A stretch of DNA of 64,000 bases from Bartonella taylorii 8TBB (GTDB lineage: Bacteria; Pseudomonadota; Alphaproteobacteria; Rhizobiales; Rhizobiaceae), in the NCBI RefSeq assembly GCF_902825155.1, contig NZ_CADEAG010000002.1, forward strand, positions 62,001 through 126,000, written 5' to 3'. Shown one piece after another: positions 2,074 to 39,854 of this stretch; position 1 is the stretch's first letter; each line of letters begins with the position of its first letter. Made by a program: the position numbers and the translations under genes. The notes beneath the pieces are model-generated. The model did not search any database, was not told the origin of the DNA, and was given only the letters and a program-made list of their open reading frames with translations.

Positions 2074-2144
2074 ACAACCGTTTCTTATAAATAAAAGTGG
2101 TATCTTCATCGGATATTTTTTATAAATTAAAATATTATCAATCT

Positions 2145-2960
2145 TTAATAGAGTTTATAAGAATCGCTAAAATGGGCGAGGGCAATACCTGATGCTGTGG
2201 CTACATTGAGGCTGTCGAAGCCATGAGCCATTGGAATACGTAAGGTGTCTGATTTTTGTAGTACATGGCTTGGTAAGCCATCCCCTTCTGTTCCCAAAAT
2301 AAGGGCTGTCCTTTTTGTTATTTTTGCTTGTTTTAGAGTGCATGGGCTAGAGGGAGAAAGCGCATAAAGATGAAAGTCTACATCGTGTAAAGCTGTTATA
2401 ATGTTATTAATATCGGCGCCTTGTGTATAGGGTATCTTGAGAGTTGCACCAGCAGAAACTCTGATTGATTTGCGGTAAAGTGGATCGCATGAGGTTTTGT
2501 CAACGATAATGCCATTACTGGCAAAGGCAGCTGCATTACGAAAAATAGCACCCATATTATCGTGATTAGAGATGCCACATAAAACTAGAATCAAGGCTTT
2601 TTCTGGAAGATCTTGTAAAAAATTTTGTAATGATAGTAGCGTTTTGCGTTTACCGATACCGAGCACACCACGATGAACATGGAATCCAGCAATATTATCC
2701 ATGACTTTTTGTGGAACGCAATAAATGGGGCATGTTGGCTGTGTTTCTCTTAAAAGGGGCATAAGTCCAGGAAGACGTTCTGTCACAATAAGCAGAGAGA
2801 GAGCAGAAAATTCTTTTGAATGCAGCAATGCCGACAATGTTACTTTGCCTTCAGCAATAAATTGATGTTGCCGTCCAACAAGATCTTTTTCACGGATATT
2901 GTGATAGTCTCTCAAACGTGGATCATCAGTTTCGTAGATTGTGGTGATGTTCAAATACAT
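2145..2960 (-). CDS. TrmH/SpoU-family RNA 2'-O-methyltransferase
   Basis: This 271-residue protein has the SPOUT (knotted) methyltransferase fold. An N-terminal substrate-binding region (residues 1-100) is followed by the three SpoU motifs: the NHDNMGAIFRNAAAF motif near residue 130, LILGTEGDGLPSHVL near 220, and IPMAHGFDSLNVATASGIAL near the C-terminus. Such enzymes methylate the ribose 2'-OH of tRNA or rRNA using S-adenosylmethionine. The exact substrate cannot be told from sequence. The gene converges on mnmA with a 71-base gap. The ATG at 2960 lacks a clear Shine-Dalgarno sequence, but the N-terminal residues YLNITTI and RLRDYHNIREKDLV look like the natural family start. Confidence 0.9.
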   Translation of the reverse strand: MYLNITTIYETDDPRLRDYHNIREKDLVGRQHQFIAEGKVTLSALLHSKEFSALSLLIVTERLPGLMPLLRETQPTCPIYCVPQKVMDNIAGFHVHRGVLGIGKRKTLLSLQNFLQDLPEKALILVLCGISNHDNMGAIFRNAAAFASNGIIVDKTSCDPLYRKSIRVSAGATLKIPYTQGADINNIITALHDVDFHLYALSPSSPCTLKQAKITKRTALILGTEGDGLPSHVLQKSDTLRIPMAHGFDSLNVATASGIALAHFSDSYKLY

Positions 2961-3072
2961 ATGGAGCTTTTAATGTTCTTTTTTCTAAATTGCCAGATGT
3001 TAAATATTTGCTTTATTTTTGAAGAGTTAAGACGAAAAACAACATTATTTTAAACCTAAAGTAGAATTTATG

Positions 3073-3101
3073 TTGACATAACACAACCATTAGTATACAT
3101 A
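3073..3101 (+). promoter_or_regulatory. Sigma-70-type promoter for the sRNA candidate
   Basis: A perfect TTGACA (3073-3078) is followed after 17 bases by TACATA (3096-3101), with an overlapping TATACA two bases earlier. A start near 3108 would lead straight into the hairpins of the RNA candidate. No protein start follows within 500 bases. Confidence 0.6.
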
Positions 3102-3107
3102 GAAAAT

Positions 3108-3240
3108 ACCGAGGGCGGTACAATGTATTTTGTTTTCGCATCGGGTGCAGGGTTTTAGGTCCCCGCTATTTCCTGAGCTCTGCATACCCTTAATTCCTAA
3201 GGGAAAAGAATCTGGGTCCCCAATGCCCAGATTCTTTTTT
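3108..3240 (+). ncRNA. Candidate structured small RNA, family unassigned
   Basis: A stretch of about 130 bases lies between a strong promoter and a strong terminator and has no open frame. It shows a 5' hairpin (TACCG/CGGTA, 3107-3120). A long arm pairs GGGTGCAGGG (3143-3152) with CTCTGCATACCC (3178-3189) with one 2-base bulge. A third hairpin, CCCTTA/TAAGGG (3187-3203), competes with the base of the long arm. The terminator hairpin closes the molecule. The GC content is well above that of the flanks, as is usual for structured RNA in AT-rich genomes. It lacks the features I would expect of SRP RNA or of the tmRNA tag. A 6S-like RNA or a cis-acting leader cannot be excluded, but the downstream gene starts 445 bases beyond the terminator. 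Confidence 0.6.
3204..3240 (+). terminator. Rho-independent terminator of the sRNA candidate
   Basis: A 13-base-pair perfect stem (AAAAGAATCTGGG with CCCAGATTCTTTT) surrounds a 9-base loop and ends in a T-run. Confidence 0.85.
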
Positions 3241-3685
3241 GGGGTATCCTTTTTTCGTCGCTGAAAATAGTTTTTAAGTTGTTTTAGCAGTCATATTTTT
3301 TGATAGAGTTGAAGTGTAAGGTTGCAACAGAATGTTAAGCGATCTTTTTACGCTGTGCGCAATTATATTAATTTGTTGAATGGCTTTATGATTATAAAAA
3401 AGATTGAATGATGATGTTTGAGAGTGATGCATTTGAGAAAAAATAACAAGTGATTTCTCTTAAGAGCTGTTGGTTTGAATCATATCCGTGTTACTCCTAT
3501 TCATTGTATTATACTGAGTATAAGTAGAGAGCAGTTGTTATAATAACAATGGTGCGCTGTGAGAGTCATTGATTGTATTATGAAATTTCTGTGATATTGG
3601 AGAAATATTGGCGATATGTCAAAAATATCATAGGGTATATGGTTAAAAGTGTTATTTCTTATAACCTGAAGAAAAGGGTGTGGTT
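3241..3685. other. Intergenic region without recognisable genes
   Basis: This AT-rich stretch lies between the sRNA terminator and the cation transporter gene. I see no open frame with family resemblance, no RNA and no clear repeat. The promoter of the transporter gene should lie in its right part. Confidence 0.5.
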
Positions 3686-4594
3686 ATGGATGTAAAAATC
3701 AATATACAAAGCTTAACCTTATACTCTATTTTCGTTGCTTGTATCGTTTTTGCTTTGAAATATTGGGCATATTACATTACTGATTCCGTTGCACTTTATT
3801 CTGATGCTTTAGAATCGATCGTAAATATACTTGCTGCATTAGCAGCGTGGTGGGCTGTTAAAATCAGTCTGAAGCCTGCGGATCATGATCATCCTTTTGG
3901 ACATCATAAGGCGGAATACTTTTCTGCAATTCTTGAAGGAATCCTGATCATTATTGCGGCAATTATTATTTTAAGAGAAGCATGGATGGCTCTTTCAACC
4001 GTTAAATTATTGCAGAAGCCTGGAATATGGCTCGTTATTCATCTTGTTGCAAGTGTTATAAATTACATGTGGGGCTGGGTTCTGATGCGGCAGGGGAAAA
4101 TTCATCGATCACCAGCTCTTAAAGCTGATGGAATGCATTTCATGACAGATGTTTTTACGTCACTTGCCATTTTAATTGGTTTGGTTGCTGGTTTTGTGGG
4201 TGGATGGAGTGTCTTGGACCCGATTTTAGCGATAATTGTTGGGGTTAATATTCTTTTACAAGGCTGGAAGGTGATTAGGAGTGCGGTTCAAGGGTTAATG
4301 GATGTTGGAGTTGAATTGAATGAAAATATGCGCATTCGGGAGCTTATTTCTGCAAATGCGCATGGTGCACTTGAAGTCCATGATTTGCTTACGCGTGTTG
4401 CTGGTAGAGTTACTTTTATAGAGTTTCATTTGGTTGTTCCAGCTGCAATGTCGGTAGGAGAAGCACATCAGATTTGCGATAAAATTGAAGGGGTTCTTCA
4501 AAAAGAGTTTGATAATGTGCGTATTTCTATTCATGTTGAGCCTGAAAATGAAGCTAAGTTACCCTTGGGCACGACGGTGGTTCCTTTTATATAA
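3686..4594 (+). CDS. Cation diffusion facilitator (CDF) family metal transporter
   Basis: The product is about 302 residues: an N-terminal domain of six membrane helices and a cytoplasmic C-terminal domain. CDF exporters move Zn2+, Fe2+ or Mn2+ out of the cytoplasm in exchange for protons. Family hallmarks are SDALES in helix 2 (near residue 38), the loop DHDHPFGHHKAEYFS (near 69), and LKADGMHFMTDVFTS in helix 5 (near 150), whose HxxxD residues belong to the transport site. The C-terminal domain has the usual VHDLLTR and IHVEPE stretches. A GTG at 3680 is possible, but GAAAAGGG sits seven bases before ATG 3686, so I choose the latter. The metal is not predictable from sequence alone; the iron/zinc FieF-like branch is most similar by eye. 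Confidence 0.9.
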   Translation: MDVKINIQSLTLYSIFVACIVFALKYWAYYITDSVALYSDALESIVNILAALAAWWAVKISLKPADHDHPFGHHKAEYFSAILEGILIIIAAIIILREAWMALSTVKLLQKPGIWLVIHLVASVINYMWGWVLMRQGKIHRSPALKADGMHFMTDVFTSLAILIGLVAGFVGGWSVLDPILAIIVGVNILLQGWKVIRSAVQGLMDVGVELNENMRIRELISANAHGALEVHDLLTRVAGRVTFIEFHLVVPAAMSVGEAHQICDKIEGVLQKEFDNVRISIHVEPENEAKLPLGTTVVPFI

Positions 4595-4824
4595 AAAGAT
4601 TTTCCCCAATTATCTGTAGAAGCGTAAACATTGTTTTTTAGGATAGTGATATAAAGCTTGATGATACACACTCGAGAGGAACTAATCTGTAATCAGAGAT
4701 GGTTAAAAACTTTCTTCTTTTAGGGTGAAGAAGAGGCAAAATTATTATTTAAAGGAATATGAATTAAAAGATATTTTCGTTTTTTGCTTGTTTTTACAAC
4801 TTTTGGGCTATTCTTATAGATTGT

Positions 4825-5727
4825 TTAAAGATTAATTATTTCAGTACACGCTATTTCATTTTTTTGATTGATAAGATTATAGCGTTGCAGCTGACAGTTC
4901 CAGCGATGGTGAAAGCGCTCAATGGAAAATAAATTGAAACCTGCGGGTGGTTTTTTGTCACCAAAAGCCTGTGATGCGGAAGCAACACCAACAATAGGAA
5001 TTTTTCCTATTGTTCCTTCAATGACCTTTAGTGTGGGTAAATGGGTATGACCGTGAAGAACAAGTTCACAGCCATGATGTTTTATAACATCTAGAAAACG
5101 CTCGATGCCCCATAATTTTTTATGCCAAGAGGTTGCATGATGAAAGGGAGGATGATGTATCATGACGACACGAAACAGATCGCGTGCTGCTGCTTCGTTT
5201 AAAAGTTGTGATAAAGCTTTCGCTTGCATTTTACCAAAATAACCAAAAGCTTGAAAAGGTGGTGTAGCGATGGCTGAGCAAGCGCCTATAATGGCAATAT
5301 TCTTGCGAATGCGCATATAAGGAAAGGGAAGGGAAGGTTTTTGAGGGGGATCACTTGAGATCCAAGGTTGAAAGAGAGTACAGGCTTTCAGAAATGCTCC
5401 ACGGACATAGGCGTCATGATTGCCAAATGTTAAAGAAATATTTTGAGGCTGTCCTTGGTTAAGCAACCAATTATGTGCTTGTTCAAATTCTTTGTCGAGA
5501 GCAAGATTGACAAGATCACCAGAGATTACAAGATGATCAGGATTTGTCTTGTTTAAGGTATCCATTAAAGATTCTAGGACATTGGTTGCCATTTGGCTCT
5601 TACGTTTTCTTTGCCAATTAAGATAGCCAGTAAGGCGTTTGCCAAAAAGTTCAAATAGGGAAGGTTGCGGCAAAGGTGAAAGATGCACATCCGATATATG
5701 AGCAAGATAAAACATAAGCGTTAGCAT
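4825..5727 (-). CDS. Calcineurin-like metallophosphoesterase
   Basis: This 300-residue protein has the classical two-metal phosphoesterase motifs in order: DVHLS near residue 14, ISGDLVN near 69, FGNHDAY near 101, MIHHPPFH near 190, and LHGHTHLP near 226. The family cleaves phosphomonoesters or phosphodiesters, including cyclic nucleotides, nucleotides and lipid precursors. The substrate is not predictable here. No signal peptide is evident. An in-frame ATG at 5715 (starting MFYLAHISDVH) is an equally good start, because motif I begins at once after it. The gene stands alone between the cation transporter and the MoxR operon. Confidence 0.88.
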   Translation of the reverse strand: MLTLMFYLAHISDVHLSPLPQPSLFELFGKRLTGYLNWQRKRKSQMATNVLESLMDTLNKTNPDHLVISGDLVNLALDKEFEQAHNWLLNQGQPQNISLTFGNHDAYVRGAFLKACTLFQPWISSDPPQKPSLPFPYMRIRKNIAIIGACSAIATPPFQAFGYFGKMQAKALSQLLNEAAARDLFRVVMIHHPPFHHATSWHKKLWGIERFLDVIKHHGCELVLHGHTHLPTLKVIEGTIGKIPIVGVASASQAFGDKKPPAGFNLFSIERFHHRWNCQLQRYNLINQKNEIACTEIINL

Positions 5728-5979
5728 AACGTTGAAAACGATTTAGGCAATAAAAAAATTATAAAACAACCCAGTGCTTTTGGGAGGAAAGAGAGGATTG
5801 TGAAATAAAAAAATAGTTTGTTGTGACTGTAAGAAAAACCTTTGGAGAATTTATGCTTCATTGGTTTTTGGATGATAAAAAGGGAGTATGATACTCTGCG
5901 TTATTATTTAACTCATCGGTGTATATTTTTTTGTAGGATGCATTGCATTTTTAGATTGCTGCATAAATTCTCAAGTTTT

Positions 5980-8076
5980 TTAACGGCTTTCACGATACCA
6001 CATGCTGTTTAATAGTAAAAGACAAGCAAGGAGTGCAAAGAAACCGGAAAAGATCGAAAAATGAAAAGTATTGATTAAACGGGTCTGTGTTGCTTCTTTC
6101 AGAATAATTGAATGAGAAGAAAGAGATGTTGGGCTTTTTGGGGATTGAATTACCTTGAGAGGAGGAAGATGAATGCTTCCTCTTTCTTTGTTGTATAAAC
6201 GCGTGATATGTCCGCCAGTGTGTTTACTGATAGGGGCTAATTTTTCTTCCGTTGAAATTAAGTCAAACAATTCGAGATTATCAAATATCCCTACAGAAGA
6301 AAGCGCTGTTAGATTGCCATTTTTGATGGTAAAAATCCCTGTTTCATTCGTATTAATAGTTGCTGTAAAGACACCTTCTTGTTCTTTTGTAAGGATAATA
6401 TTTTCTTTTTTTCCAGAAGGAAAAGTTATTTCGGCTGGCTCTGGGTGATCTTTGAGCGTTTGGCGGTGAATCATTAAACGATGTTGGTCGCTGGTGGTAC
6501 TTAACTTTTCTTCTTCAAGTTCTGGTTCTTTCATAAGCCAATGGGCAATTCGGCGATAAAGAGCTGCATAAGGTCCTCCTCCTTCAAAGCCTCTTGCCCA
6601 CAGCCAACTTTCGTCGGAGAGTAACATGCCTACACGTCCTTTACCAACATGGGAAAGAAGTAAAAGTGGTTGTTCATCAGCTCCTTTCATGAGAGAAGTG
6701 CCTTTGTGTCTGTTTTGAATGGCAATTTGTCGCATCCATTGCCCCCACTGAGAGGCTGGATCAGTGGGTGTTGCAAGCCCTCTTGTGACAGGATGACGTT
6801 CACCGTCTTTAGTTAATTGGGGGCGAAAAGGTTTTTGAATAATAACACCATTTGGTAGTGCGGGCAGGATGCTTATTAAAGGTGTTTTCGCAAGCGAGTT
6901 TTGTTGAGTAAATTCAGGCCCTGTTACCATTAGCAACGCGCCACCCTTTTGTACATATTGCGCGATATAATCATAATAGATTAATGGAAGAACAGCAGAA
7001 TGTTGGTAGCCGTCAAGGATGATGAGATCAAAATTCCCGATCTCTTCAACAAAGAGTTTTCTTGTAGGAAAGACTACAAGTGATAATTGGCTCAATGGCG
7101 TATTATCTGCTTTGTTCGGAGGACGCAAAATAGTAAAATGAACAAGATCAATATTGGAATCACCTTTCAAAAGATCACGCCATGTCCGTTCACCATTGTA
7201 AGGTGCTCCTGAAATAAGGAGGACACGCAAATTTTCTCTGATTCCTTCAATAATAGTTATGGCACGGTTGTTTTCAAAGCTTAATTCACCTTTGTGCGCA
7301 TTAGTAGTAACTTGGATGATGTTTTTTTCAGCATGAAGAAGAGTGATTTCAGTTTGAAAAATAATACCAGGAGTTACAGTATAATGGCCAACTTCTTGTC
7401 CATTGATACTTATAGTAATGTCTGCTTGCGTTGGTAGAGATTCTTTGGGTTTTCCTTTATCTTCTACCAAGATGGAGAGCATTTGTGGTTTGTTAATAAG
7501 GGCAAAGCGGGGAGGAGAAATAAATTTGATTTGGCGGTCAAATTCATCTGATCTTCCTGTTATAAGGGCATTGACAGGTGCTTTATGGTGAAGTTCTGAG
7601 AGAGGCGGAATGTCATGGACTTGCCCATCAGTGATGAAGATTGTACCTGCATAACGAGATGGTGGGACATCAGATAGCGCTTGTGTTAAGGCATTAAACA
7701 AATTTGTTGAGTGGGCATATTGATTATCAGCAAGTTTTCCAGCCTCAATAAATCGTGGTTCAAATTGCGGATAATGCGCCAATGCATTGGTTAATTGCGC
7801 GCGTGCTGTGTCACTATCACTTGTGCGTGTGCCAAATGTTTGGCTTTTGCTGCGATCAATGACAATGCCTACAGTGCTTTTAACTGGTTCACGTTGCTCT
7901 TTTATGATCATGGGATTAAGCAGAGCAAGAATCAATGAGAACAATGCCATCAGCCGCAATAAAGAGCCTTGGCGTTGTGTAACAAAGCCAATAATGACGA
8001 ACACGGTAGATAATCCACTTAAGAGGAGAATCCAAGAGAGTGGTAAAAAAGGCTGAAAAGTGATGAATGCTATCAT
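5980..8076 (-). CDS. Large membrane-anchored VWA-like protein of the MoxR operon
   Basis: The product is 698 residues. Two N-terminal membrane helices (about 8-30 and 37-58) precede a periplasmic or cytoplasmic body, and a last helix lies near residues 665-690. A degenerate von Willebrand A-like start is visible as VGIVIDRSKSQ near residue 88, with a DxSxS metal-site pattern. A class I glutamine-amidotransferase-like (DJ-1/ThuA-like) region surrounds FDLIILDGYQHSAVLP and GGALLMVTGPEF at about 340-400. This arrangement is typical of the last gene of alphaproteobacterial MoxR-DUF58-DUF4159 operons. Its ATG overlaps the upstream stop by four bases (ATGA), so the genes are translationally coupled. 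No enzymatic role is established for the family. By analogy with BatA/B-type aerotolerance operons it may assemble or stabilise envelope complexes; that is inference. Confidence 0.8.
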   Translation of the reverse strand: MIAFITFQPFLPLSWILLLSGLSTVFVIIGFVTQRQGSLLRLMALFSLILALLNPMIIKEQREPVKSTVGIVIDRSKSQTFGTRTSDSDTARAQLTNALAHYPQFEPRFIEAGKLADNQYAHSTNLFNALTQALSDVPPSRYAGTIFITDGQVHDIPPLSELHHKAPVNALITGRSDEFDRQIKFISPPRFALINKPQMLSILVEDKGKPKESLPTQADITISINGQEVGHYTVTPGIIFQTEITLLHAEKNIIQVTTNAHKGELSFENNRAITIIEGIRENLRVLLISGAPYNGERTWRDLLKGDSNIDLVHFTILRPPNKADNTPLSQLSLVVFPTRKLFVEEIGNFDLIILDGYQHSAVLPLIYYDYIAQYVQKGGALLMVTGPEFTQQNSLAKTPLISILPALPNGVIIQKPFRPQLTKDGERHPVTRGLATPTDPASQWGQWMRQIAIQNRHKGTSLMKGADEQPLLLLSHVGKGRVGMLLSDESWLWARGFEGGGPYAALYRRIAHWLMKEPELEEEKLSTTSDQHRLMIHRQTLKDHPEPAEITFPSGKKENIILTKEQEGVFTATINTNETGIFTIKNGNLTALSSVGIFDNLELFDLISTEEKLAPISKHTGGHITRLYNKERGSIHLPPLKVIQSPKSPTSLSSHSIILKEATQTRLINTFHFSIFSGFFALLACLLLLNSMWYRESR

Positions 8077-30024: not shown

Positions 30025-30394
30025 AGTAGTTTTTATAAAAAATAGAGTTTTAGAAAAAATATCCCCAATTTTTCAATAGAATGTATGAAACTAAAAAATG
30101 CTTAATCCTGAGTCTGTTAGAGCAGATTATCTATTTGTTTCTTGTAAAAAAACACTTTTTTGAATGTGGGGGACTGGTACTATGAAATTGTATCAATACA
30201 CTGAAAAAGCTTGATGATTCGTTTTATTGTTATCAGGCTGCCGCAGGAAGCATTATTGGGTTCTGTGGGGTGTGTGCTGTCGATGTTTTTAATGTGTATT
30301 TGTTTGGTGTAAAGGCTTTGATTGTAGCAAAATGTTGTTACAGTTTTTAGGCTGATTATGTTCTGTTGACAATGTTTTAATATGATTGAGGATT
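30025..30394. other. Intergenic region between the UbiK-like and YbjN genes
   Basis: About 370 bases of AT-rich sequence without a supported gene, RNA or repeat. A promoter for the YbjN gene may lie in its right half. Confidence 0.45.
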
Positions 30395-30898
30395 ATGATG
30401 AGGCTTGCATTTTGCACCACAGAAAGAGAAGAGCATCCTGTTGACTTTATCGAACAGATTGCTTGTAAATATGATTGGTCGTTTGAACGGGACGCACAAG
30501 ATGAAATTAGTGTTTGTGTGGAAGGAAAAAGGGCAAATTATCACCTTGCTTTTTCATGGATGGAAGAGCAGGAAGCTCTTCATTTGGCTTGTGCATTTGA
30601 TCTTTCTATTGAAAACGCTCGTATGGCAGAAATGCATCGCTTATTGTTAGCAATTAATGAAAAATTATTGCTGGGACATTTTGATTATTGGCAAGGGAAT
30701 CATTCGGTTATTTATCGACAAGGACTTCTTCTGGCTGGTGGAGTACATCCATCTCATGTACAGGTTGAAACATTGTTAATAAATGCTCTTAAAGTCTGTG
30801 AAAGCTATTATGTTGCATTTCAGATGGTCGCTTGGTGTGGGGAAAGCGCTTGCAAGGCACTGCAATATACTTTGTTTGAAACTGTAGGGAATGCCTAA
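30395..30898 (+). CDS. YbjN-domain protein
   Basis: The product is about 167 residues with the alpha/beta fold of the YbjN family, related to type III secretion chaperones in shape. Recognisable stretches are PVDFIEQIACKYDW (near 16), the central HLALAFSWMEEQEALHLACAFDL-like strands (near 45-65), MAEMHRLLLAINEKLLLGHFDYW (near 73) and the end VAWCGESACKALQYTLFETVGNA. Function is unknown. GAGG at 30388 is close to ATG 30395 and better spaced for ATG 30398. In related genomes the proline synthesis gene proC often follows; here it is replaced by the two-component system on the other strand. Confidence 0.82.
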   Translation: MMRLAFCTTEREEHPVDFIEQIACKYDWSFERDAQDEISVCVEGKRANYHLAFSWMEEQEALHLACAFDLSIENARMAEMHRLLLAINEKLLLGHFDYWQGNHSVIYRQGLLLAGGVHPSHVQVETLLINALKVCESYYVAFQMVAWCGESACKALQYTLFETVGNA

Positions 30899-30949
30899 AT
30901 CTTCAAGTTTATTTAGCTTTTTTTCTTATAGATGATTTATGAAATATTG

Positions 30950-32305
30950 CTAAAGGGGGACATCAATAATAGCGCGCAAGCCCCCTAGAGGGCTATCGTC
31001 CAATTTAATATTGCCTCCATGGCTACGTGCTATATCTTGAGCAATAGAAAGGCCAAGTCCTGTTCCACTCGCATCTTGATTTCGTGCTTTATCAAGTCTA
31101 AAGAATGGCTTAAAGACTTCTGAGCGCATATTTTTATGAATACCAGGTCCATCATCGTCAATAGTTATGATGAAAGATTCTTGTTGGGATATTGCTGTTA
31201 GTTTGACAGTATTGGCGTAACAAAATGCGTTTGACACAAGATTGCTGATGAGACGCGTGAAGGCACTTGGGCGTACTTGTATTTGTGTAGGGCCTTCAAT
31301 GATGTAGGAAAATTTACGTTTGTGAAGATGCGCATCGGTAGAGAATTTTTGCATAAGAGCATTTAAATCAAAGGTTTTGACACATTCACTTCCTTCACCA
31401 CGTGCAAAAGCAAGGTAATCTTCTAACATATTTTGCATGTCGCTTACATCTTGCTCAAGTGGCTTACTATCAAAGTCAGTATTTGCTAACGCTAGCTGAA
31501 GTTTAAAACGGGTGAGAATGGTTCTTAAATCATGGCTTACACCCGAAAGCATCATGGTGCGTTGTTCGATTTGCCGTTCAATACGTTCACGCATGCGTAA
31601 AAAAGCAAAGCCAGCACGACGGACTTCATCAGCTCCTTGTGGTTGAAACCCTTCTGGTAAAGGACGACCGCGTCCAAAACTTTCTGCTGCTTCAGCCAAT
31701 TGTTGAATTGGTTTGATTTGGTTACGCAGGAAGTAAATCGCTATCAATAATAAAACAAGAGCTGTTCCTACCATCCAGCTTAAAAAAATAGCGGTATTGG
31801 AAGCGTAGGCTTGGCTGCGTGGTGCAAAAACACGCAAGATGCTGTGACCAAGGTGAATACGAATTTCGACAAGATCAGAATCTCCTACGGTATCAATCCA
31901 GAAGGGGCGGTTAATTTGGCGAGTAATTTCTTCACTTAGAAAATAATCAAGAATTGCAAAAAATGGTTTCGGTCCTGGGGGGGGAAGGGGGGATGGGGGG
32001 AGGATAGAAATGTTTAATCCCATACGTTGTTGTGCAATGCGCTTGATATCTTCATAGTTATCTTGTTGCTGATATGTTTCAATGATATCGATAATGGCTG
32101 AGATATCGTGGACAACAGCGGTTGAAAGACGCTCGGTTACCATTTGCCAATGACGTTCCATAAAAACGTAAGCAATCACTGTTTGCAAGAGTACCATAGG
32201 AGCAATAATAATGATCAAAGAGCGGGCATAAAGCCGTTTAGGCATCTTCTTTGTTAACCATCCGACGATTTTTTTTGAGGTTTCAATCATTGCGTGTCTA
32301 TTCAA
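30950..32305 (-). CDS. EnvZ-type sensor histidine kinase
   Basis: The 451-residue kinase has a membrane helix near 25-48, a periplasmic sensor region to about 165, a second helix near 175-195, and a HAMP domain to about 245. The phospho-acceptor H-box is SGVSHDLRTILTRFKLQ (near residue 255). The ATP-binding domain contains the N-box NLVSNAFCYA (near 350), DDDGPGIHKN (near 375) and GTGLGLSIAQDIARSHGG (near 410). It should autophosphorylate and pass phosphate to the response regulator encoded just upstream, whose stop overlaps its start by eight bases. Unusual is a Pro-rich stretch PPSPLPPPGPKP at about 103-114 in the sensor domain, encoded by long G-runs. A free copy of the catalytic half lies at 35070-35690. 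Confidence 0.93.
   Translation of the reverse strand: MNRHAMIETSKKIVGWLTKKMPKRLYARSLIIIIAPMVLLQTVIAYVFMERHWQMVTERLSTAVVHDISAIIDIIETYQQQDNYEDIKRIAQQRMGLNISILPPSPLPPPGPKPFFAILDYFLSEEITRQINRPFWIDTVGDSDLVEIRIHLGHSILRVFAPRSQAYASNTAIFLSWMVGTALVLLLIAIYFLRNQIKPIQQLAEAAESFGRGRPLPEGFQPQGADEVRRAGFAFLRMRERIERQIEQRTMMLSGVSHDLRTILTRFKLQLALANTDFDSKPLEQDVSDMQNMLEDYLAFARGEGSECVKTFDLNALMQKFSTDAHLHKRKFSYIIEGPTQIQVRPSAFTRLISNLVSNAFCYANTVKLTAISQQESFIITIDDDGPGIHKNMRSEVFKPFFRLDKARNQDASGTGLGLSIAQDIARSHGGNIKLDDSPLGGLRAIIDVPL
31977..32000. repeat. Clustered homopolymeric G-tracts inside the kinase gene
   Basis: On the + strand there are runs of 8 G (31977-31984), 6 G (31987-31992) and 6 G (31995-32000), separated by two bases each. 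They are very unusual in this AT-rich sequence and lie in the sensor-domain part of the kinase gene. Single-base slippage in any of them would frameshift the kinase before its catalytic domains. Confidence 0.9.
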
Positions 32306-33002
32306 TTGAGAGTTTATAACCTATTCCTCGCACGGTCTGGAGCCATATCGGGAGAGCTGGATTTTTTTCGATTTTACGACGGAGACGATTGATCTGTACG
32401 TCAATGGCACGTTCACCGGTATTGTTATCGTCTGTTGTAAATTTATGACGTGGAATGATATCACCTGCATTTTCTGCGAAAAGAACCATCATTTTTTGTT
32501 CTTTATCTGTCAGTTTAATCACTTCTCCCCCTTTTTTTAGCTCGCGCCGTGCAATTGAAAAGATATATGGTCCAAAAACGATCTGCTCGATTTTAGGTTG
32601 GTTTAGTAGAAAACCACGTCGTAAAATAGCATTAATGCGAAGTAAAAGCTCACGAGGATCAAACGGTTTAGCAAGATAGTCATCAGCGCCTGCTTCTAAG
32701 CCATGGATACGGTGGTCTGTTTCCGATAAAGCTGTAAGCATGAGGATAGGAACATCTTTTGTTTGTCGCAGTGAGTAGGTGAGATCGATGCCGTTTTCAC
32801 CGGGCATCATGACATCAACTATAAGAAGGTCAAAATCTAAGCATGCGAGTTGTCGTTTTGCTTCATCGGCATTGGCTGAGACTGAAACGCGAAAACCATT
32901 TTTAATGAGGAATTGAAATAAAAGATTGCGAATACGGGTGTCGTCATCAATCACAAGAAGGTGAGGTGCATCGTCACACAAAACTTCAACATGATCGGTC
33001 AT
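32298..33002 (-). CDS. OmpR-family response regulator
   Basis: The protein is 234 residues from ATG 33002 (MTDHVEV); a TTG at 33020 would add six. The receiver domain has the acidic pocket LLVIDDDTRIR, the phospho-acceptor Asp in LLIVDVMMPGENGIDL (near 58), the Thr of LMLTALSE (near 88) and the Lys of YLAKPFDP (near 110). A winged-helix DNA-binding domain follows from about 135, with the typical GERAIDVQINRLRRKIE and VRGIGYKL motifs. It overlaps the kinase gene by eight bases, so the two form one operon. Its regulon is not deducible from this window. Confidence 0.94.
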   Translation of the reverse strand: MTDHVEVLCDDAPHLLVIDDDTRIRNLLFQFLIKNGFRVSVSANADEAKRQLACLDFDLLIVDVMMPGENGIDLTYSLRQTKDVPILMLTALSETDHRIHGLEAGADDYLAKPFDPRELLLRINAILRRGFLLNQPKIEQIVFGPYIFSIARRELKKGGEVIKLTDKEQKMMVLFAENAGDIIPRHKFTTDDNNTGERAIDVQINRLRRKIEKNPALPIWLQTVRGIGYKLSIE

Positions 33003-33147
33003 TCTTAAAAACCTTGACAAAAATTTAGTTTACACAAAACTTAAGTTTACATAAGTTATATAAAGCTGTCGAGCAGTCTATTTTTTATAAAAGGGGAGGA
33101 AATGTGCCTTGTAAGCTTGGAAGAATTTTATTTTTGAAAAGGGCATC

Positions 33148-33798
33148 ATGAATAATTTTAGTACACATATTATTCCAGTTACACCTTTTCAACAAAATTG
33201 CACCCTGCTTTTTGATAATGAACAAAAAGTAGGGGTTTTGGTTGACCCCGGTGGTGATTGGCTTCGCGTTCAAGAAGTGATCCAGAAAAGGGGTGTTACC
33301 GTTGAAGCTATTTGGATAACACATGGTCATTTTGATCATGTAGGAGCGGCAATGCAAGCGAAAGAGGCGCTTAATGTTAAAATCATTGGTTCTCATCGTG
33401 ATGACAAGCCCCTGATGGATGTTGTGAGTGAAAGCGCAAAAAGTTACGGCATTAGAGATGCATGCATTTGTATCCCTGACCAATGGTTAGAAGATGGTGA
33501 GTGTGTTCATTTTGCTGGACATGAGTTTAGGGTTTTGCATACACCGGGACACTCCCCTGGTCATGTCATTTATTTCAATGAAAAAGAACGCTTCGCTTTA
33601 TTGGGTGATGTCCTTTTTCGTGGTTCTATTGGACGTACGGATTTTCCATTCTGTTCTCATGAAGAATTGATGAGATCTCTTAAGGAAAAAGTTTTGCCCT
33701 TAGGTGATGACGTTTGTTTTATTTGTGGGCATGGTCCAGGAAGTCGCATAGGCTATGAGCGCCAAAACAACCCTTTTCTTCAAATGGTTAGCATATAA
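33148..33798 (+). CDS. MBL-fold metallo-hydrolase (glyoxalase II-like)
   Basis: The 216-residue protein has all metal ligands of the hydrolase branch: THGHFDHVGA (HxHxDH, near residue 55-62), HTPGHSPGHV (near 131), GDVLFRGSIGRTDFP (near 152) and ICGHGPGS (near 192). Such enzymes hydrolyse thioesters or related small metabolites; the exact substrate is open. A GAAAAGGG site precedes the ATG. It is divergent from the response-regulator gene and convergent with the BA14K gene. A truncated second copy without the HxHxDH motif lies at 35706-36020. Confidence 0.92.
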   Translation: MNNFSTHIIPVTPFQQNCTLLFDNEQKVGVLVDPGGDWLRVQEVIQKRGVTVEAIWITHGHFDHVGAAMQAKEALNVKIIGSHRDDKPLMDVVSESAKSYGIRDACICIPDQWLEDGECVHFAGHEFRVLHTPGHSPGHVIYFNEKERFALLGDVLFRGSIGRTDFPFCSHEELMRSLKEKVLPLGDDVCFICGHGPGSRIGYERQNNPFLQMVSI

Positions 33799-33799
33799 A

Positions 33800-33829
33800 C
33801 ACAAAAAACGCTCTAGAGCATTTTTTGTG
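33800..33829. terminator. Bidirectional terminator, first unit
   Basis: CACAAAAAA and TTTTTTGTG arms with an inner GCTC/GAGC pair surround a two-base loop. One A-C mismatch interrupts the stem, whereas the second copy at 36022 is perfect. It separates the convergent MBL and BA14K genes. Confidence 0.8.
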
Positions 33830-33864
33830 CCATTTAAGATTTCTTTTGCAAACTGTTACAGAAA

Positions 33865-34500
33865 CTAATTTATTGGAGCATAACAAAAGTGTTCCAAACC
33901 ATTCCGGTCTCGAAAAGTGCCTGTTTTAGGGTTGAACGAACGGTATTTTTTCTTGCAATAGTTAAGCCAATTAGGTGCCGACGATTGCTGGAGTGGCTCA
34001 TATTCCACCGTTTGCGGAGCTTCATAAATTATCTGTTCTTGTGGAACCTGTTGATATACAACTTGATGCTGTGGTGCTATTTGATAAACAATTTGTGGTT
34101 GTTCTGGTTTTTTTAAAATTTTGCCGAGAAGTGCACCTGCTGCAAGAGCAAGAATGCCCATTGCTAAAGCTTCTCCTGAGTTATTTATATTAATACTACT
34201 GTGTTTTGTCTTTTTGCGCTCGACATAATGATATGTCTTGTGTTCAAAATGATGATGTTGTTGTGCTCCCCATTGATGGCTGACATAATGACGCTTGTGG
34301 GGATTATCAAAAGAGTGATGTTCACTATGAGAAAAATGGGAGCTAAAATTGTGAGACGGTAAACCAGCCTCCCTCCTTATTTCTCTTATCGTATCATAGT
34401 TATGATACCATGCCATATCCGCAAGCGTTGCATTTAGCGGCATAAAAACGGTTACAGTTGACATTGCTGACAATACCGCTAGCTTGATCACTCTTTTCAT
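33865..34500 (-). CDS. BA14K-family secreted protein, first copy
   Basis: The 211-residue protein has a signal peptide (about 1-27, ending near LNATLA). A His-rich middle follows (HSEHHSFDNPHKRHYVSHQW and QQHHHFEHKTYHYVER). A short hydrophobic segment ALAMGILALAAGALLG lies near 113-128, with a PQ-rich linker behind it. The C-terminal BA14K motif CKKKYRSFNPKTGTFRDRNG ends with a second Cys. BA14K proteins of Brucella are immunoreactive envelope proteins with reported lectin-like activity; the role here is inferred. The paralogue at 36086 keeps both ends but has a different centre. MBL and BA14K genes share a terminator between them. Confidence 0.9.
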   Translation of the reverse strand: MKRVIKLAVLSAMSTVTVFMPLNATLADMAWYHNYDTIREIRREAGLPSHNFSSHFSHSEHHSFDNPHKRHYVSHQWGAQQHHHFEHKTYHYVERKKTKHSSININNSGEALAMGILALAAGALLGKILKKPEQPQIVYQIAPQHQVVYQQVPQEQIIYEAPQTVEYEPLQQSSAPNWLNYCKKKYRSFNPKTGTFRDRNGLEHFCYAPIN

Positions 34501-35081
34501 AATGATGCTCCTTATGTAAATTCGTATTTTTCACATCCTACACGTTTCAAACTGAATAGAGCCTGAACAATTTTGGACTTTATTGTGACAAAAAATAAAA
34601 ATTCATTTAGTTAAACCTATTGCCAATACAATAAAATAAAATCATGACAGAATTTTGATTTCAATTAATGTACTCTTCTTAAGGTTAATTAAGCAGCGTG
34701 TATTGAGAGCAGCAGATTTTTACTATTGGTTATAAATTCTTTATTTATGAGTGCTTTATTTATTGCTTGATACAATATGAATTGAACAATGGGTGTATGA
34801 ATAAAAGTTAGCATTTTTTATCATAAGCTTATGGTGCTATGATAAAATCTTATTTTACTTTATTTGTGTGATAGAATACAGTCCTGTTTGACTACTCTCT
34901 TGTGAGGCTATTGAGTTCGATATTAGATTATAACTGTATAAAATAATATATTGCGGGAACTTTTTTTGATATATGGGAAACATTCTCTTTAATTTTTTTG
35001 TGCTCGTTTAGGTTTTAGAAGTGTTTTTGGCGTGTTTTGATAGTTTTAGGGATTTTTTTATAATGTGGTTTAACAAGGAAA
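34501..35081. other. Spacer behind the first BA14K gene, repeated at 36767-37352
   Basis: This AT-rich non-coding stretch contains the promoter of the BA14K gene on the minus strand. It is repeated downstream with scattered substitutions. I see no open frame or RNA that I can support. Confidence 0.6.
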
Positions 35082-35690
35082 ATTGCTAAAGGGGACATCA
35101 ATAATAGCGCGCAAGCCCCCTAGAGGGCTATCGTCCAATTTAATATTGCCTCCATGGCTACGTGCTATATCTTGAGCAATAGAAAGGCCAAGTCCTGTTC
35201 CACTCGCATCTTGATTTCGTGCTTTATCAAGTCTAAAGAATGGCTTAAAGACTTCTGAGCGCATATTTTTATGAATACCAGGTCCATCATCGTCAATAGT
35301 TATGATGAAAGATTCTTGTTGGGATATTGCTGTTAGTTTGACAGTATTGGCGTAACAAAATGCGTTTGACACAAGATTGCTGATGAGACGCGTGAAGGCA
35401 CTTGGGCGTACTTGTATTTGTGTAGGGCCTTCAATGATGTAGGAAAATTTACGTTTGTGAAGATGCGCATCGGTAGAGAATTTTTGCATAAGAGCATTTA
35501 AATCAAAGGTTTTGACACATTCACTTCCTTCACCACGTGCAAAAGCAAGGTAATCTTCTAACATATTTTGCATGTCGCTTACATCTTGCTCAAGTGGCTT
35601 ACTATCAAAGTCAGTATTTGCTAACGCTAGCTGAAGTTTAAAACGGGTGAGAATGGTTCTTAAATCATGGCTTACACCCGAAAGCATCAT
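35070..35690 (-). pseudogene. Truncated histidine kinase copy (catalytic half only)
   Basis: The frame encodes the last 200 or so residues of the kinase at 30950: the H-box SGVSHDLRTIL at its start, the N-box and the GTGLGLS loop, but no sensor, membrane or HAMP part. It begins with the internal pair MM of the parent. One G missing from a G-run near the end shifts the frame, so the tail reads DVPFSNFPC instead of DVPL. The sequence otherwise looks identical to the parent over about 620 bases. I call it a pseudogene because the N-terminal half and the operon promoter are gone, but the frame is open, and a soluble kinase or phosphatase fragment could in principle be made. Confidence 0.75.
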
Positions 35691-35705
35691 GGTGCGTTGT
35701 TCGAT

Positions 35706-36020
35706 ATGGTTAGAAGATGGTGAGTGTGTGCATTTTGCTGGACATGAGTTTAGGGTTTTTCACACACTGGGACACTTCCCTAGTCATGTCATTTATTTCA
35801 ATGAAAAAGAACGCTTCGCTTTATTGGGTGATGTCCTTTTTCGTGGTTCTATTGGACGTACGGATTTTCCATTCTGTTCTCATGAAGAATTGGTGAGATC
35901 TCTTAAGGAAAAAGTTTTGCCCTTAGGTGATGACGTTTGTTTTATTTGTGGGCATGGTTCAGGAAGTTGCATAGGCTATGAGTGCCAAAACAACCTTTTT
36001 TTCAAATGGTTAGCATATAA
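35706..36020 (+). pseudogene. Truncated MBL hydrolase copy (C-terminal half)
   Basis: This copy corresponds to residues from about 112 onward of the hydrolase at 33148. The HxHxDH metal motif is absent. The remaining HTPGHSPG motif is changed to HTLGHFPS, and GPGSR to GSGSC. A one-base loss in the T-rich run near the end shifts the reading frame, so the original stop is missed. The piece is therefore non-functional and has been drifting. It forms part of a chimeric 141-codon frame (35647-36072) whose first 20 residues come from the antisense strand of the kinase fragment. Confidence 0.88.
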
Positions 36021-36021
36021 A

Positions 36022-36051
36022 CACAAAAAACGCTCTGGAGCGTTTTTTGTG
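36022..36051. terminator. Bidirectional terminator, second unit
   Basis: A perfect 14-base-pair stem (ending CGCTC/GAGCG) has A-rich and T-rich outer ends. It is the counterpart of the hairpin at 33800. Confidence 0.85.
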
Positions 36052-36085
36052 CTATTTAAGATTTTTTGGTAGGACGGAACAGAAA

Positions 36086-36766
36086 TTAATTTATTGGAGC
36101 ATAACAAAAGTGTTCCAAACCATTCCGGTCTCGAAAAGTGCCTGTTTTAGGATTGAACGAACGGTATTTTTTCTTGCAATAGTTAAGCCAATTAGATACC
36201 GACGATTGCTGGTGTGGCCCATATTCCACCGTTTGCGGAGCTTCATAAATTATCTGTTCTTGTGGAACCTGTTGATATACAATTTGATATTGTGGTACTA
36301 TTTGATAAACAATTTGTGGCTGTTCTGGTTTTTTTAAAATTGTACTAGGAGTCGTATCTGCTTTTGTCTTTTCGCGCTCGACGTAGTGATATGTCTTGTT
36401 TTCAACATGTTGATGATGGTGATGGTGATGGTGATGGTGATGGTGATGATGTTGTTGCTGCTGTTGTTGTTGTTGCTGTTTCTTGCTTTTGTCTTTGTCA
36501 CTAGAACACCCGTGGAAATCATCAATAAACTTTTGAAAATCATCAGAAAAAAAGCCGCGGTTTCTATCAGAACAATGGGAACGAGACAAACTAGAACGCC
36601 AGATATCATCAATTTTCTTATCAATTTCCCTTGTCGCATCATCTATTTCTTTCGTGATAGGGTGAGTAAGATCCCATATTATATCCGCAAGCGTTGCATT
36701 TAGCGGCATAAAAACGGTTAGAGTTGACATTGCTGACAATACCGCTAGCTTGATCACCTTTTTCAT
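36086..36766 (-). CDS. BA14K-family secreted protein, second copy with Gln/His tract
   Basis: The 226-residue paralogue of the BA14K protein at 33865 keeps the signal peptide and the C-terminal motif CKKKYRSFNPKTGTFRDRNG unchanged. The region after the signal differs strongly (ITKEIDDATREIDKKIDDIW and a Cys-containing stretch HCSDRNRGF). A run of about nine Gln and then about thirteen His follows near residues 97-118. The small hydrophobic segment of the first copy is gone. The His run could bind metal; that is inference. Both open frame and conserved ends suggest the gene is still functional. It originates from the tandem duplication. Confidence 0.85.
   Translation of the reverse strand: MKKVIKLAVLSAMSTLTVFMPLNATLADIIWDLTHPITKEIDDATREIDKKIDDIWRSSLSRSHCSDRNRGFFSDDFQKFIDDFHGCSSDKDKSKKQQQQQQQQQHHHHHHHHHHHHHQHVENKTYHYVEREKTKADTTPSTILKKPEQPQIVYQIVPQYQIVYQQVPQEQIIYEAPQTVEYGPHQQSSVSNWLNYCKKKYRSFNPKTGTFRDRNGLEHFCYAPIN
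36413..36478. repeat. Triplet/hexamer microsatellite encoding His and Gln runs
   Basis: The plus strand shows alternating ATG and GTG triplets (36413-36451) followed by TTG and CTG triplets (36452-36478). On the minus strand these are CAT/CAC (His) and CAA/CAG (Gln). The unit length is a multiple of three, so slippage would change tract length without a frameshift. The first BA14K copy has only the seed QQHHH at the same place. Confidence 0.9.
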
Positions 36767-37526
36767 AATGATGCTCCTTGTGTAAATTCGTATTTTTCAC
36801 ATCCTACACGTGTCAAACTGAATAGAGCCTGAACAATTTTGGACTTTATTATGACAAAAAAAATAAAAATTCATTTAGTTAAAGCTATTGCTAATACGAT
36901 AAAATAAAATCATGACAGAATTTTGATTTCAATTAATGTACTCTTCTTAAGGTTAATTAAGCAGCTTGTACTGAGAGCAGCAGATTTTTACTATTGGTTA
37001 TAAATTCTTTATTTATGAGTACTTTTTTATTGCTTGATACAATATGAATTGAACAATAGGTGTATGAATAAAAGTTAGCGTTTTTTATAATAGGCTTATG
37101 GTGCTATGATAAAACCTTATTTTACTTTATTTGTGTGATAGAATACAGTCCTGTTTGACTACTCTCTTATGAGGCTAAATATTGAGTTCGATATCAGATT
37201 ATAACTGTATAAAATAATATATTGCGGGAACTTTTTTTGATATATGAGAGACATTCTCTTTAATTTTTTTGTGCTCGTTTAGGTTTTAGAAGTATTTTTG
37301 GCGCTTTTTGATAGTTTTAGGGATTTTTTTATAACGTTGTTTAACAAGAAAAATTGCTTAAAAAGTCAATAATTTTAAGAGTTTTTTGTAAAATGTTCTT
37401 TCTTATGTTGTTTTAAACAAATTGGAGCATCCTTAATGTTTGAGGTTATCTATTTTTAGGGCAATATTTGTTGCTTTTCATTTTTAGTTATTTTTTTAGA
37501 AGAGCAAAAGATTATTTTTGGTGATT
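36767..37526. other. Spacer between the second BA14K gene and uvrB
   Basis: Bases up to 37352 repeat 34501-35081 with scattered changes. The remaining 170 bases are unique AT-rich sequence at the end of uvrB. No open frame or RNA is supported. Confidence 0.6.
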
Positions 37527-39854
37527 TTAATTTTTTCGCTCCTTTGTTGGACGCGTTTTTTTTCGTTTTATGGTCGCTTGGTTAGGGGTGCTTTTACGAG
37601 ATTTTCCTTTTCTATTTTCCAAAATACCAGTATCCATGGTTGGTCCCATGTGATCAAGGTCTGGTTTGGAGAAAAGACTTGATTGTAATATCGGGTCATG
37701 GCTGGATTGTTCTCTATGATGTGTTAAGGGATTCTCCGCGATTTCTAGTTCTATCTTTTGTAATTGTTTGATTTCATCGCGAAGTCGTGCTGCCTCTTCA
37801 AAGTCAAGATCAGCAGCTGCTTCATGCATTGATTTTTCAAGGGATTTAATGTGGAGTGTTAAATTGTTGCCAACCATATTGTTTTGCCTGATAAAATCAG
37901 GAATATTTGTGGAAGTATGGTTGTTTTCGCCTCCTGAATTGAGAATATCATTGATATTTTTTTTGATACTGGTTGGTGTGATATGGTGCTCTTCATTGTA
38001 AGCTATTTGTTTTTGTCGACGTCTTTGTGTCTCCTGTAAGGCGCGTTCTATGGAACCTGTGATTGTATCTGCGTAAAGGATAACGCGGCCATCTACATTG
38101 CGTGCAGCGCGTCCAATTGTTTGTACGAGCGAAGTTTCAGAGCGCAAAAACCCCTCTTTATCGGCATCTAGAATAGCAACAAAACCGCATTCTGGAATAT
38201 CTAAACCTTCCCGAAGTAAGTTAATACCGATGAGAACATCAAAGGTGCCAAGCCGAAGATCACGTAGAATTTCAATACGTTCTAACGTATCAATGTCAGA
38301 ATGCATATAGCGTACGCGAATGCCTTGTTCATGGAGATATTCTGTCAAATCTTCGGCCATACGCTTGGTTAGGACAGTTACTAAGGTACGGTAGCCTTTT
38401 TGAATTGTTTTACGAATTTCGTTCACAACATCATCGACTTGGCTGGAGGCTGGGCGAATTTCTGTTGCTGGATCAATCAATCCTGTTGGGCGAATAATTT
38501 GTTCAGCAAAAATGCCGTGAGCTTGTTCTATTTCCCAGCGTCCAGGCGTTGCAGAGACAGCAATAGTTTGTGGGCGCATGGCATCCCATTCTTCAAAGCG
38601 TAAGGGACGATTGTCCATACAGGAAGGGAGACGAAATCCATATTCTGCTAAGGTTGCTTTTCTTCGAAAATCACCTCGGTACATGCCACCAATTTGGGGA
38701 ATAGTGACATGGCTTTCATCGATAAAAACGAGAGCATTGTTTGGAATATATTCAAACAAGGTTGGAGGTGGTTCACCGGGTTTACGCCCTGTTAAATAGC
38801 GTGAATAATTTTCAATTCCGGCGCATGAGCCGGTTGTTTCTAACATTTCCAAATCAAAAATTGTACGCTGTTCTAAACGTTGTGCCTCTAAAAGACGTCC
38901 CGCGGCATTTAATTCGGCAAGGCGTTGCACCAGTTCCATTTTGATGGACTTCATTGCCTGATTTAATGTTGGGCGTGGTGTTACGTAGTGTGAATTGGCA
39001 TAAATTTTAATTGATTGAAGATCACCTGTTTTTTGGCCTGTGAGGGGATCAAACTCAGTAATTGTTTCTACTTCATTGCCAAAAAGAGAAATACGCCAAG
39101 CACGATCTTCAAGGTGGGCAGGAAAAATTTCAATTATATCTCCTCGGACACGAAAGGAACCACGAATAAAGTTGATATTTTGTCGACGATAGTGTTGAGC
39201 AACTAAATCAGTGAGTAATTGTCGTTGATTGAGTTTGTCACCTTTTTTTATTTCAAAGGTCATGGCAGTATAGGTTTCTACTGAACCAATTCCGTAGATA
39301 CAGGATACAGATGCAACAATAATGACATCATCACGTTCAAGTACAGCACGTGTTGCAGCATGGCGCATACGGTCGATTTGTTCATTGATAGAAGATTCTT
39401 TTTCAATATAAGTGTCAGAGCGCGCAACATAGGCTTCTGGCTGATAATAGTCATAATAAGAAACAAAATATTCGACGGCATTGTGGGGAAAAAAGCTTTT
39501 AAATTCTCCGTAAAGCTGTGCTGCTAAAGTTTTATTTGGTGCTAAGATCAAAGCTGGACGTTGTGTCTTTTCAATGATTTTGGCCATTGTATAGGTTTTT
39601 CCTGAACCGGTAACACCCAAAAGCACTTGTGTACGCTCATCCTTTTCTATCCCTTCAATCAGAGTTTTGATTGCTTGGGGTTGATCCCCGGCAGGTTCAA
39701 AAGATGTTTCGAGTTGAAATGGAATGCCACCTTCAGATTTTTCAGGACGAGCAGGGCGGTGGGGTGTCCATAATACGCCATTCTTAAAAAGGGGATTGCC
39801 TGACGCAATCAGGGCAGAAAGAGCTTCTACTGTTGCTGTGACACCGTTTTTCAT
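37527..39854 (-). CDS. uvrB: Excinuclease ABC subunit UvrB
   Basis: The 775-residue damage-verifying helicase of nucleotide excision repair works with UvrA and UvrC. After a roughly 45-residue N-terminal extension typical of alphaproteobacteria come Walker [13 protein letters not shown] (near residue 80), the beta-hairpin region [10 protein letters not shown] (near 132) and IDESHVT (near 376). The helicase motifs GLDIPE and QTIGRAARN follow (near 555-590). The C-terminal UVR domain that contacts UvrC has [23 protein letters not shown] (near 675). A basic Lys/Arg-rich tail ([21 protein letters not shown]) ends the protein. GGATG precedes the ATG. It is a single gene on the minus strand. Confidence 0.97.

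Follow-up and report, generated by a model that had tools for sequence, protein, structure and literature searches.

A heterotypic tandem pair of BA14K genes in Bartonella taylorii 8TBB, probably built by illegitimate joining, gene conversion and recombination between species

How did two BA14K genes come to lie side by side in Bartonella taylorii 8TBB, within a repeat of which little else is whole? The question is raised by a 64,000-nucleotide stretch of this genome (the window, whose positions serve as coordinates below), in which a block encoding an EnvZ-like sensor kinase, an OmpR-like response regulator, a hydrolase of the metallo-β-lactamase (MBL) fold and a BA14K protein (unit 1, 30946-35081) is followed directly by a second unit (35082-37352) without the equivalent of 31571-33482. 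These limits had been given by the initial annotation, and self-BLAST reproduced them to the base, as it did the observation that BA14K is the only gene intact in both units: in unit 2 the kinase is cut down to a 206-aa remnant, the regulator is missing, and the hydrolase is truncated, with an out-of-frame end. We consider it likely that this is a heterotypic pair which was made by illegitimate joining, was partly homogenised around its cores by gene conversion, and was moved between species by recombination.

The two proteins differ most in their cores, that is, the part of BA14K between the signal peptide and a conserved KTYHY-like motif. Two classes were recovered in a core tree of 46 of 48 rows (G020 and G034 left out) and 92 of 208 columns. 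Class S (support 100/94.8) comprises the first copies of 8TBB, G065 and CM31XJBT, the second copies of B. vinsonii subsp. vinsonii and B. doshiae, and the AU18XJBT copy on contig C83; class L (100/100) comprises the second copies of 8TBB, G065 and CM31XJBT, the first copies of B. vinsonii subsp. vinsonii and B. doshiae, the AU18XJBT copy on C86, and B. grahamii, in which L is the sole BA14K at this locus. The pairs of 8TBB plus G065, B. doshiae, CM31XJBT and B. vinsonii subsp. vinsonii were each rejected as clades by the approximately unbiased (AU) test (p-AU 1.9e-4 or less; 1.9e-4 for 8TBB plus G065), and an earlier core tree, made with a narrow motif and lacking 8 of the 48 rows, gave the same two classes. 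Both S and L are held by six genomes, and none of the six classable genomes has two of one class. Judging from these trees, the 8TBB locus appears to be a heterotypic tandem pair with cores of two older classes, S in the first gene (33865-34500, reverse strand, 211 aa) and L in the second (36086-36766, reverse strand, 226 aa), so that at least one core would have come from, or been exchanged with, another lineage. In the alignment, the L protein of 8TBB lacks the Gly-rich segment of S and carries a poly-Gln/poly-His tract.

The initial annotation had supposed that the second BA14K gene was evolving freely, and an ordinary recent tandem duplication, followed by fast divergence of that gene under relaxed or diversifying selection, would agree with flanks that are 94.7-99.7% alike, with the presence of the parental flanks in the single-copy relative Bartonella sp. 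DB5-6, and with a ratio of replacement to silent substitution rates (dN/dS) of 0.73 between the two paralogs. Class L also changes fast elsewhere: B. doshiae (L037 4518-5252) and B. grahamii (L038 4401-5156) differ by 8 silent and 41 replacement changes, against 6 and 3 in the adjacent hydrolase, and L may be under diversifying selection there. We nevertheless regard a recent duplication as quite unlikely, because the second core falls with those of B. grahamii, B. doshiae and others rather than with that of the first copy, as the AU tests of the cores attest, and because the kinase/hydrolase joint within unit 2 is common to three species. Between 8TBB and G065, moreover, dN/dS was 0.31 for the first BA14K gene, 0.24 for the second and 0.36 for the hydrolase, with no sign, in these 7 to 11 changes each, of freer evolution of the second copy.

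Near-identity of the flanks, on which an estimate of recent origin would lean, is itself uneven, a point absent from the initial annotation. The 3' block of the kinase (30942-31571 versus 35079-35706) is identical in 628 of 630 columns (99.7%), the other two being gaps, compared with about 95% elsewhere, namely 605 of 639 columns (94.7%) in the 3' block of the hydrolase (33484-34121 versus 35707-36342) and 648 of 683 (94.9%) in the block upstream of BA14K (34416-35091 versus 36682-37363). The middle of BA14K (about 34121-34416 versus 36342-36682) could be aligned by self-BLAST over just 54 bases, with gapped bridging under looser alignment. The kinase remnant (35082-35705, reverse strand; open reading frame [ORF] 35070-35690) has no substitution relative to the intact kinase of the same genome; the two differ only in a G run at the edge, whose unequal length is counted as a mismatch or a gap. 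This homogenised tract is sharply limited, in that 0 substitutions in 618 bases of the kinase block adjoin 34 non-identical columns of 639 in the hydrolase block (Fisher 8.6e-11). The 8TBB remnant is 4.4% different from that of G065; 16 sites in the four kinase sequences of the two genomes group by species and 0 by copy, and a clade of the kinase remnants was rejected both for 8TBB plus G065 (p-AU 9.8e-5) and for these plus CM31XJBT (2.5e-4). The hydrolase remnants of 8TBB and G065 do the opposite and group together (100/99.6), and conversion was thus confined to parts of the unit. Since the kinase remnants group by species in spite of a shared joint, and the hydrolase remnants across species, the kinase remnant of 8TBB was clearly rewritten by gene conversion after the split, and its near-identity reflects this conversion and not youth. 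The kinase tree comprised 43 rows (split or short kinase matches, e.g., B. vinsonii subsp. vinsonii and G034, being out) and the hydrolase tree 48.

Similar signs are seen around the cores. In the upstream tree (44 of 48 rows; G020, AU18XJBT twice and B. queenslandensis NH15 out), the two B. doshiae copies group (100/98.2), and six L copies were rejected as one clade (p-AU 4.8e-35); the upstream region of 8TBB (34501-35081 for the first gene and 36767-37352 for the second, about 95% alike) was probably rewritten by conversion as well. In the tree of C-terminal DNA (47 of 48 rows; G020 out), both S (1.9e-4) and L (3.4e-4) were rejected as clades, and the C-terminal motif appears to follow lineage, not core class. 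The signature of concerted evolution, in which copies are more alike within than between species and the duplication is older than the split, can thus be recognised in the kinase remnant, and in part in the upstream and C-terminal DNA.

Could the kinase remnant instead be what is kept, as a soluble kinase core with a function of its own and BA14K as its passenger? It is a 206-aa open frame with a HATPase_c domain in 8TBB, and the fragments of G065 and CM31XJBT have no internal stops. Remnants without recent conversion, however, change as though under little constraint, with 11 silent and 20 replacement changes versus 21 and 4 in intact kinases (p 3.6e-4), a pattern as would be expected of a decaying copy, and no kinase remnant was found in the pairs with a uvrB/hydrolase joint described below; we give such a function hardly any credence. 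The changes of the 8TBB kinase itself (7 silent, 7 replacement) differ from those of intact kinases (21:4, p 0.03), not from those of remnants (11:20, p 0.51). Overwriting of the intact kinase by the remnant would suit this 7:7 ratio; we did not adopt it, as the duplicated and unduplicated halves of the gene are alike (7:6 versus 5:3, p 1.0; rate p 0.18).

As for how the units were joined, the initial annotation had noted ATTGCT at all three edges and proposed duplication by short homology. The motif is indeed found at 30946, 35082 and 37353, and the parents of the duplication joint (35082-35087) have exactly these 6 bases in common, for which the chance at random pairs of places in the window was 0.24% for at least 6 bases (200,000 draws). 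The proposal is thereby strengthened, although only two of the three edges are independent, the middle one being composed of the other two, and the duplication joint of G065 reads GTTACT. In DB5-6 (L039), the ancestral right flank aligned with the right edge (37353-37358) carries ATTGCT, and the left flank is present without it. The second joint, within unit 2, passes from TTCGAT (ending at 35705) directly into ATGGTTAG (starting at 35706), with the bases 31571-33482 missing and a microhomology of 0 bases, in agreement with the absence of homology reported at first. Apart from point differences, this joint is the same in 8TBB, G065 and CM31XJBT, and the arrangement would most simply predate the split of the species of 8TBB and G065. 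A recent origin, which presence in only one clade would have favoured according to the initial annotation, is not borne out, as the joint occurs in three species, one of which acquired it by a lateral route.

That unit 2 might be an assembly artefact was the refutation named in the initial annotation. The genome is a 2.0-Mb draft of 236 contigs (the window lies inside one of 242,746 bases), and no substitution separates the two occurrences of the kinase repeat, an exact identity which could be an assembler's consensus error. Outside the kinase block, however, the units are about 5% different, and G065, which is in one contig, has the same arrangement and matches a 3.6-kb query at 93% identity; the arrangement is therefore no artefact, and we attach next to no weight to that reading.

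A different joint, uvrB/hydrolase, is common to B. vinsonii subsp. vinsonii, B. doshiae and AU18XJBT. It lies inside TCCC(A/G)TT(C/T)T, where the parents have up to nine bases in common, and in B. vinsonii subsp. vinsonii and B. doshiae it pairs L with S in reverse order (L-S). Two different joints thus unite S and L, in opposite order. Had an S-L pair been present in the common ancestor of the whole group and been inherited vertically, with loss of one copy in most species and conversion of the flanks, S and L would each be one clade across the six genomes holding both, as they are. Against this stand the differences in order and remnants (kinase/hydrolase and S-L in 8TBB, G065 and CM31XJBT; uvrB/hydrolase and L-S in B. 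vinsonii subsp. vinsonii and B. doshiae), the single-copy cores of DB5-6 and G040, which belong to neither class, and import tracts visible in CM31XJBT, B. vinsonii subsp. vinsonii and B. doshiae, and we hold an ancestral pair to be improbable.

The import tracts were seen by comparing each locus with its nearest row in 200-base windows. In CM31XJBT (L035), positions 1500-4700 are 96-99% like the nearest row, mostly a grahamii-group genome, and for 4900-6640, comprising the S core, its upstream DNA and the kinase remnant, 8TBB or G065 is nearest in 8 of 9 windows. Its own kinase and own remnant were rejected as one clade (2.0e-47), and its two hydrolase parts group (100/82.1). CM31XJBT thus received S plus the kinase remnant laterally from the 8TBB/G065 lineage. 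In B. vinsonii subsp. vinsonii (L036), the nearest rows for windows 2000-6400, which extend from the middle of the kinase to the uvrB fragment, are those of the grahamii group or doshiae, and the hydrolase remnant, C-terminus and upstream DNA of the second copy are vinsonii-like. With regard to homology-facilitated illegitimate recombination, import tracts and the illegitimate uvrB/hydrolase joint were both observed; in B. vinsonii subsp. vinsonii both sides of that joint look native. Two side observations concern the same loci. The kinase remnant at L035 6024-6641 has 23 private changes; read on the coding strand of the kinase, 13 of them are G to A and 2 C to T, a strand-biased set. In AU18XJBT (G054), a uvrB/hydrolase/BA14K-S unit on contig C83 (L092) lies between near-identical direct repeats of about 37-44 bases (at about 364-407 and 1276-1312), with a run of N at its right edge; since the left flank is similar to the DNA that lies beyond uvrB in B. 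queenslandensis BqUM, the unit may have been relocated.

Taking these observations together, we propose that, in an ancestor of the species of 8TBB and G065, an illegitimate joint with 6-base homology would have added another copy of the block directly after the existing one, and that a deletion of 1.9 kb would have cut the passenger genes to remnants. The two cores would stem from separate lineages, brought together either when the units were joined or through an exchange afterwards. Between the direct repeats, gene conversion would then have rewritten parts around the cores (in 8TBB the kinase remnant and the upstream region, in B. doshiae the latter), the cores being presumably too different to pair and so kept distinct, and recombination between species would carry parts of the array onward, as with S and the kinase remnant in CM31XJBT.

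Several points weigh against this proposal. Homogenisation within genomes is partial: the C-terminal DNA of the second copies of 8TBB and G065 is identical between the two species, single-copy G011 stands beside 8TBB and G065 in the C-terminal tree, the C-termini of the two doshiae copies stay apart there, and the two vinsonii copies come together neither in the upstream nor in the C-terminal tree. For the upstream DNA of 8TBB, grouping of its second copy with that of G065 was rejected (p 0.02), but its own two copies did not group, nor was a clade of the two rejected (p 0.18). Of the windows of CM31XJBT, 5300 has doshiae as its nearest row, and 7100, which lies outside the tract, has 8TBB. 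The columns of the core tree come from gappy, repeat-rich sequence, four of its rows outside the classes are long, and the second copy of G065 is odd in residue make-up; the clades were chosen once alignments and quick trees had been viewed, which makes the AU tests look better than they are, and the comparison is of one genome per species. The data also fit either order of events, a duplication within one class followed by exchange of a core, or a join of two lineages.

Our further suggestion, a tentative one, is that S and L are a balanced pair of envelope-protein variants which Bartonella has repeatedly traded and reassembled, with the conserved flanks serving as landing pads for exchange of cores or whole units between species, because at least two unrelated rearrangements (kinase/hydrolase S-L and uvrB/hydrolase L-S) each end with one S and one L. 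A gene transfer agent, which has been described in Bartonella (PMC3610622; also PMC2697382, PMC6899734), is a possible carrier of parts of the array.

The kinase remnant matched 75 loci, 33 of them in Bartonella at 77-93% identity and the other 42 at 45% or less, and a match to 33865-37500 (E 0.001 or better) was present in 71 of the 71 genus genomes searched. Gene order was read in 60 of these (59 relatives and 8TBB; the other 11 were left out), and two adjacent BA14K genes were found at the locus in 6 of the 60, i.e., 8TBB, G065, CM31XJBT (G052), B. vinsonii subsp. vinsonii (G069), B. doshiae (G016) and G006. AU18XJBT has its second BA14K, with the uvrB/hydrolase joint, on a separate contig. 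The Pfam model gives a total of 3 BA14K genes for every one of these seven genomes (in 8TBB, one further gene lies outside the locus), at least 3 are present in 12 others of the 71, and the remainder have 1 or 2. All trees exclude fifteen distant genomes as well as loci L090, L091 and L093. The tandem pair of G006 (L088 4314-5983) was kept outside the S/L classing; its region self-repeats at about 62% over 1,175 columns, and no kinase, hydrolase or uvrB remnant was found between the copies. The EnvZ/OmpR-like pair beside BA14K gave only partial or broken matches in L088 and L089 (G006 and G034), and split kinase matches were also seen in L036, L037, L055, L061, L070, L072, L075, L076 and L079.

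Gene order at the 8TBB locus runs from a YbjN-like gene (30386-30898, forward strand; Pfam PF10722, E 1.7e-22) through the kinase, regulator, hydrolase and BA14K genes to uvrB behind unit 2 (37527-39854, reverse strand; NCBIfam UvrB above cut-off). The intact kinase (30950-32305, reverse strand, 451 aa) has Pfam HAMP and HATPase_c domains, with HisKA slightly below its cut-off, and the single-copy regulator (32298-33020, reverse strand, 240 aa) has Response_reg and Trans_reg_C; their best NCBIfam models, EnvZ and OmpR, respectively, scored below threshold. The intact hydrolase (33148-33798, forward strand, 216 aa) matches Lactamase_B (E 9.5e-33), and its 3' remnant (35706-36015 by tblastn, forward strand, inside ORF 35647-36072) covers positions 105-196 only of that model. 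No transposase or integrase was found in the unit among the 8 ORFs scanned with Pfam (short overlapping ORFs being outside the scan), and the window has no tRNA or Rfam family at gathering scores.

Both BA14K copies carry the PF07886 motif (43.9 and 43.0 bits; Pfam cut-off 26) and, judged by eye, a signal-peptide-like start; both proteins may be made and exported, the surface location named in the initial annotation being putative. Lectin-like activity has been reported for Brucella BA14K. BA14K is also called lectin-like in PMC11466379. A search of solved structures gave only weak matches (best E 0.0008; best 60 of 281), mostly over the Gln/His tract, and no useful relative. We suppose that the pair is kept for different or complementary jobs of the two cores at the cell envelope. 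In the second gene, a hexamer TGATGG repeat with an adjacent Gln-coding repeat occupies 36414-36480; its in-frame 6-base part (36414-36448, reverse strand) encodes the His tract, which is shorter in G065. Phase variation by frame shift was rejected, as the 6-base repeat is in frame and both BA14K genes are open, in a check that covered the genes and not the A/T runs upstream. Among the simple-sequence contingency loci of Bartonella, PMC11466379 includes an A9-10 repeat in a BA14K homolog, a candidate surface-related gene, which is unlike the His-tract repeat described here.

How does this locus relate to known systems? Nystedt and colleagues reportedly described, in 2008, concerted evolution of the trw type IV secretion genes in Bartonella. 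There, as here, tandem copies of host-interaction genes would be homogenised within a genome of the same genus; unlike trw, the BA14K locus has flanks that are homogenised in part while its two core classes remain separate, and the conversion also involves a truncated passenger gene. VirB5 alleles are reportedly shared between rodent Bartonella species (PMC3391547), so that variable protein segments are shared across species by recombination in both cases, whereas the BA14K locus holds two classes side by side in one genome. The orphan immunity gene arrays in the type VI secretion clusters of Vibrio cholerae also have gene variants side by side: homology-anchored incoming DNA displaces the resident gene instead of replacing it, older variants are left beside it, and the mechanism put forward by the authors resembles homology-facilitated illegitimate recombination (PMC5361080); the genes there are immunity genes, unlike the BA14K protein and the gene conversion seen here. 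In Streptococcus pneumoniae, transformation yields merodiploids, tandem duplications with two alleles, which span about 100-900 kb between repeats (PMC3784515), compared with 4.1 kb and a 6-base joint at the BA14K locus. A search of the literature on BA14K and on recombination or concerted evolution in Bartonella, covering titles and abstract openings mostly outside subscription journals, gave no report of this pair. It belongs with known variant arrays and concerted evolution, and its added feature is a preserved pair of two classes.

The locus is a warning against dating duplications from the identity of their flanks, as part of the flank here has been rewritten and the cores are older than the pair. 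With it, a BA14K locus joins those Bartonella genes that undergo exchange between species and concerted evolution, and it would offer a testable case of two protein variants kept together.

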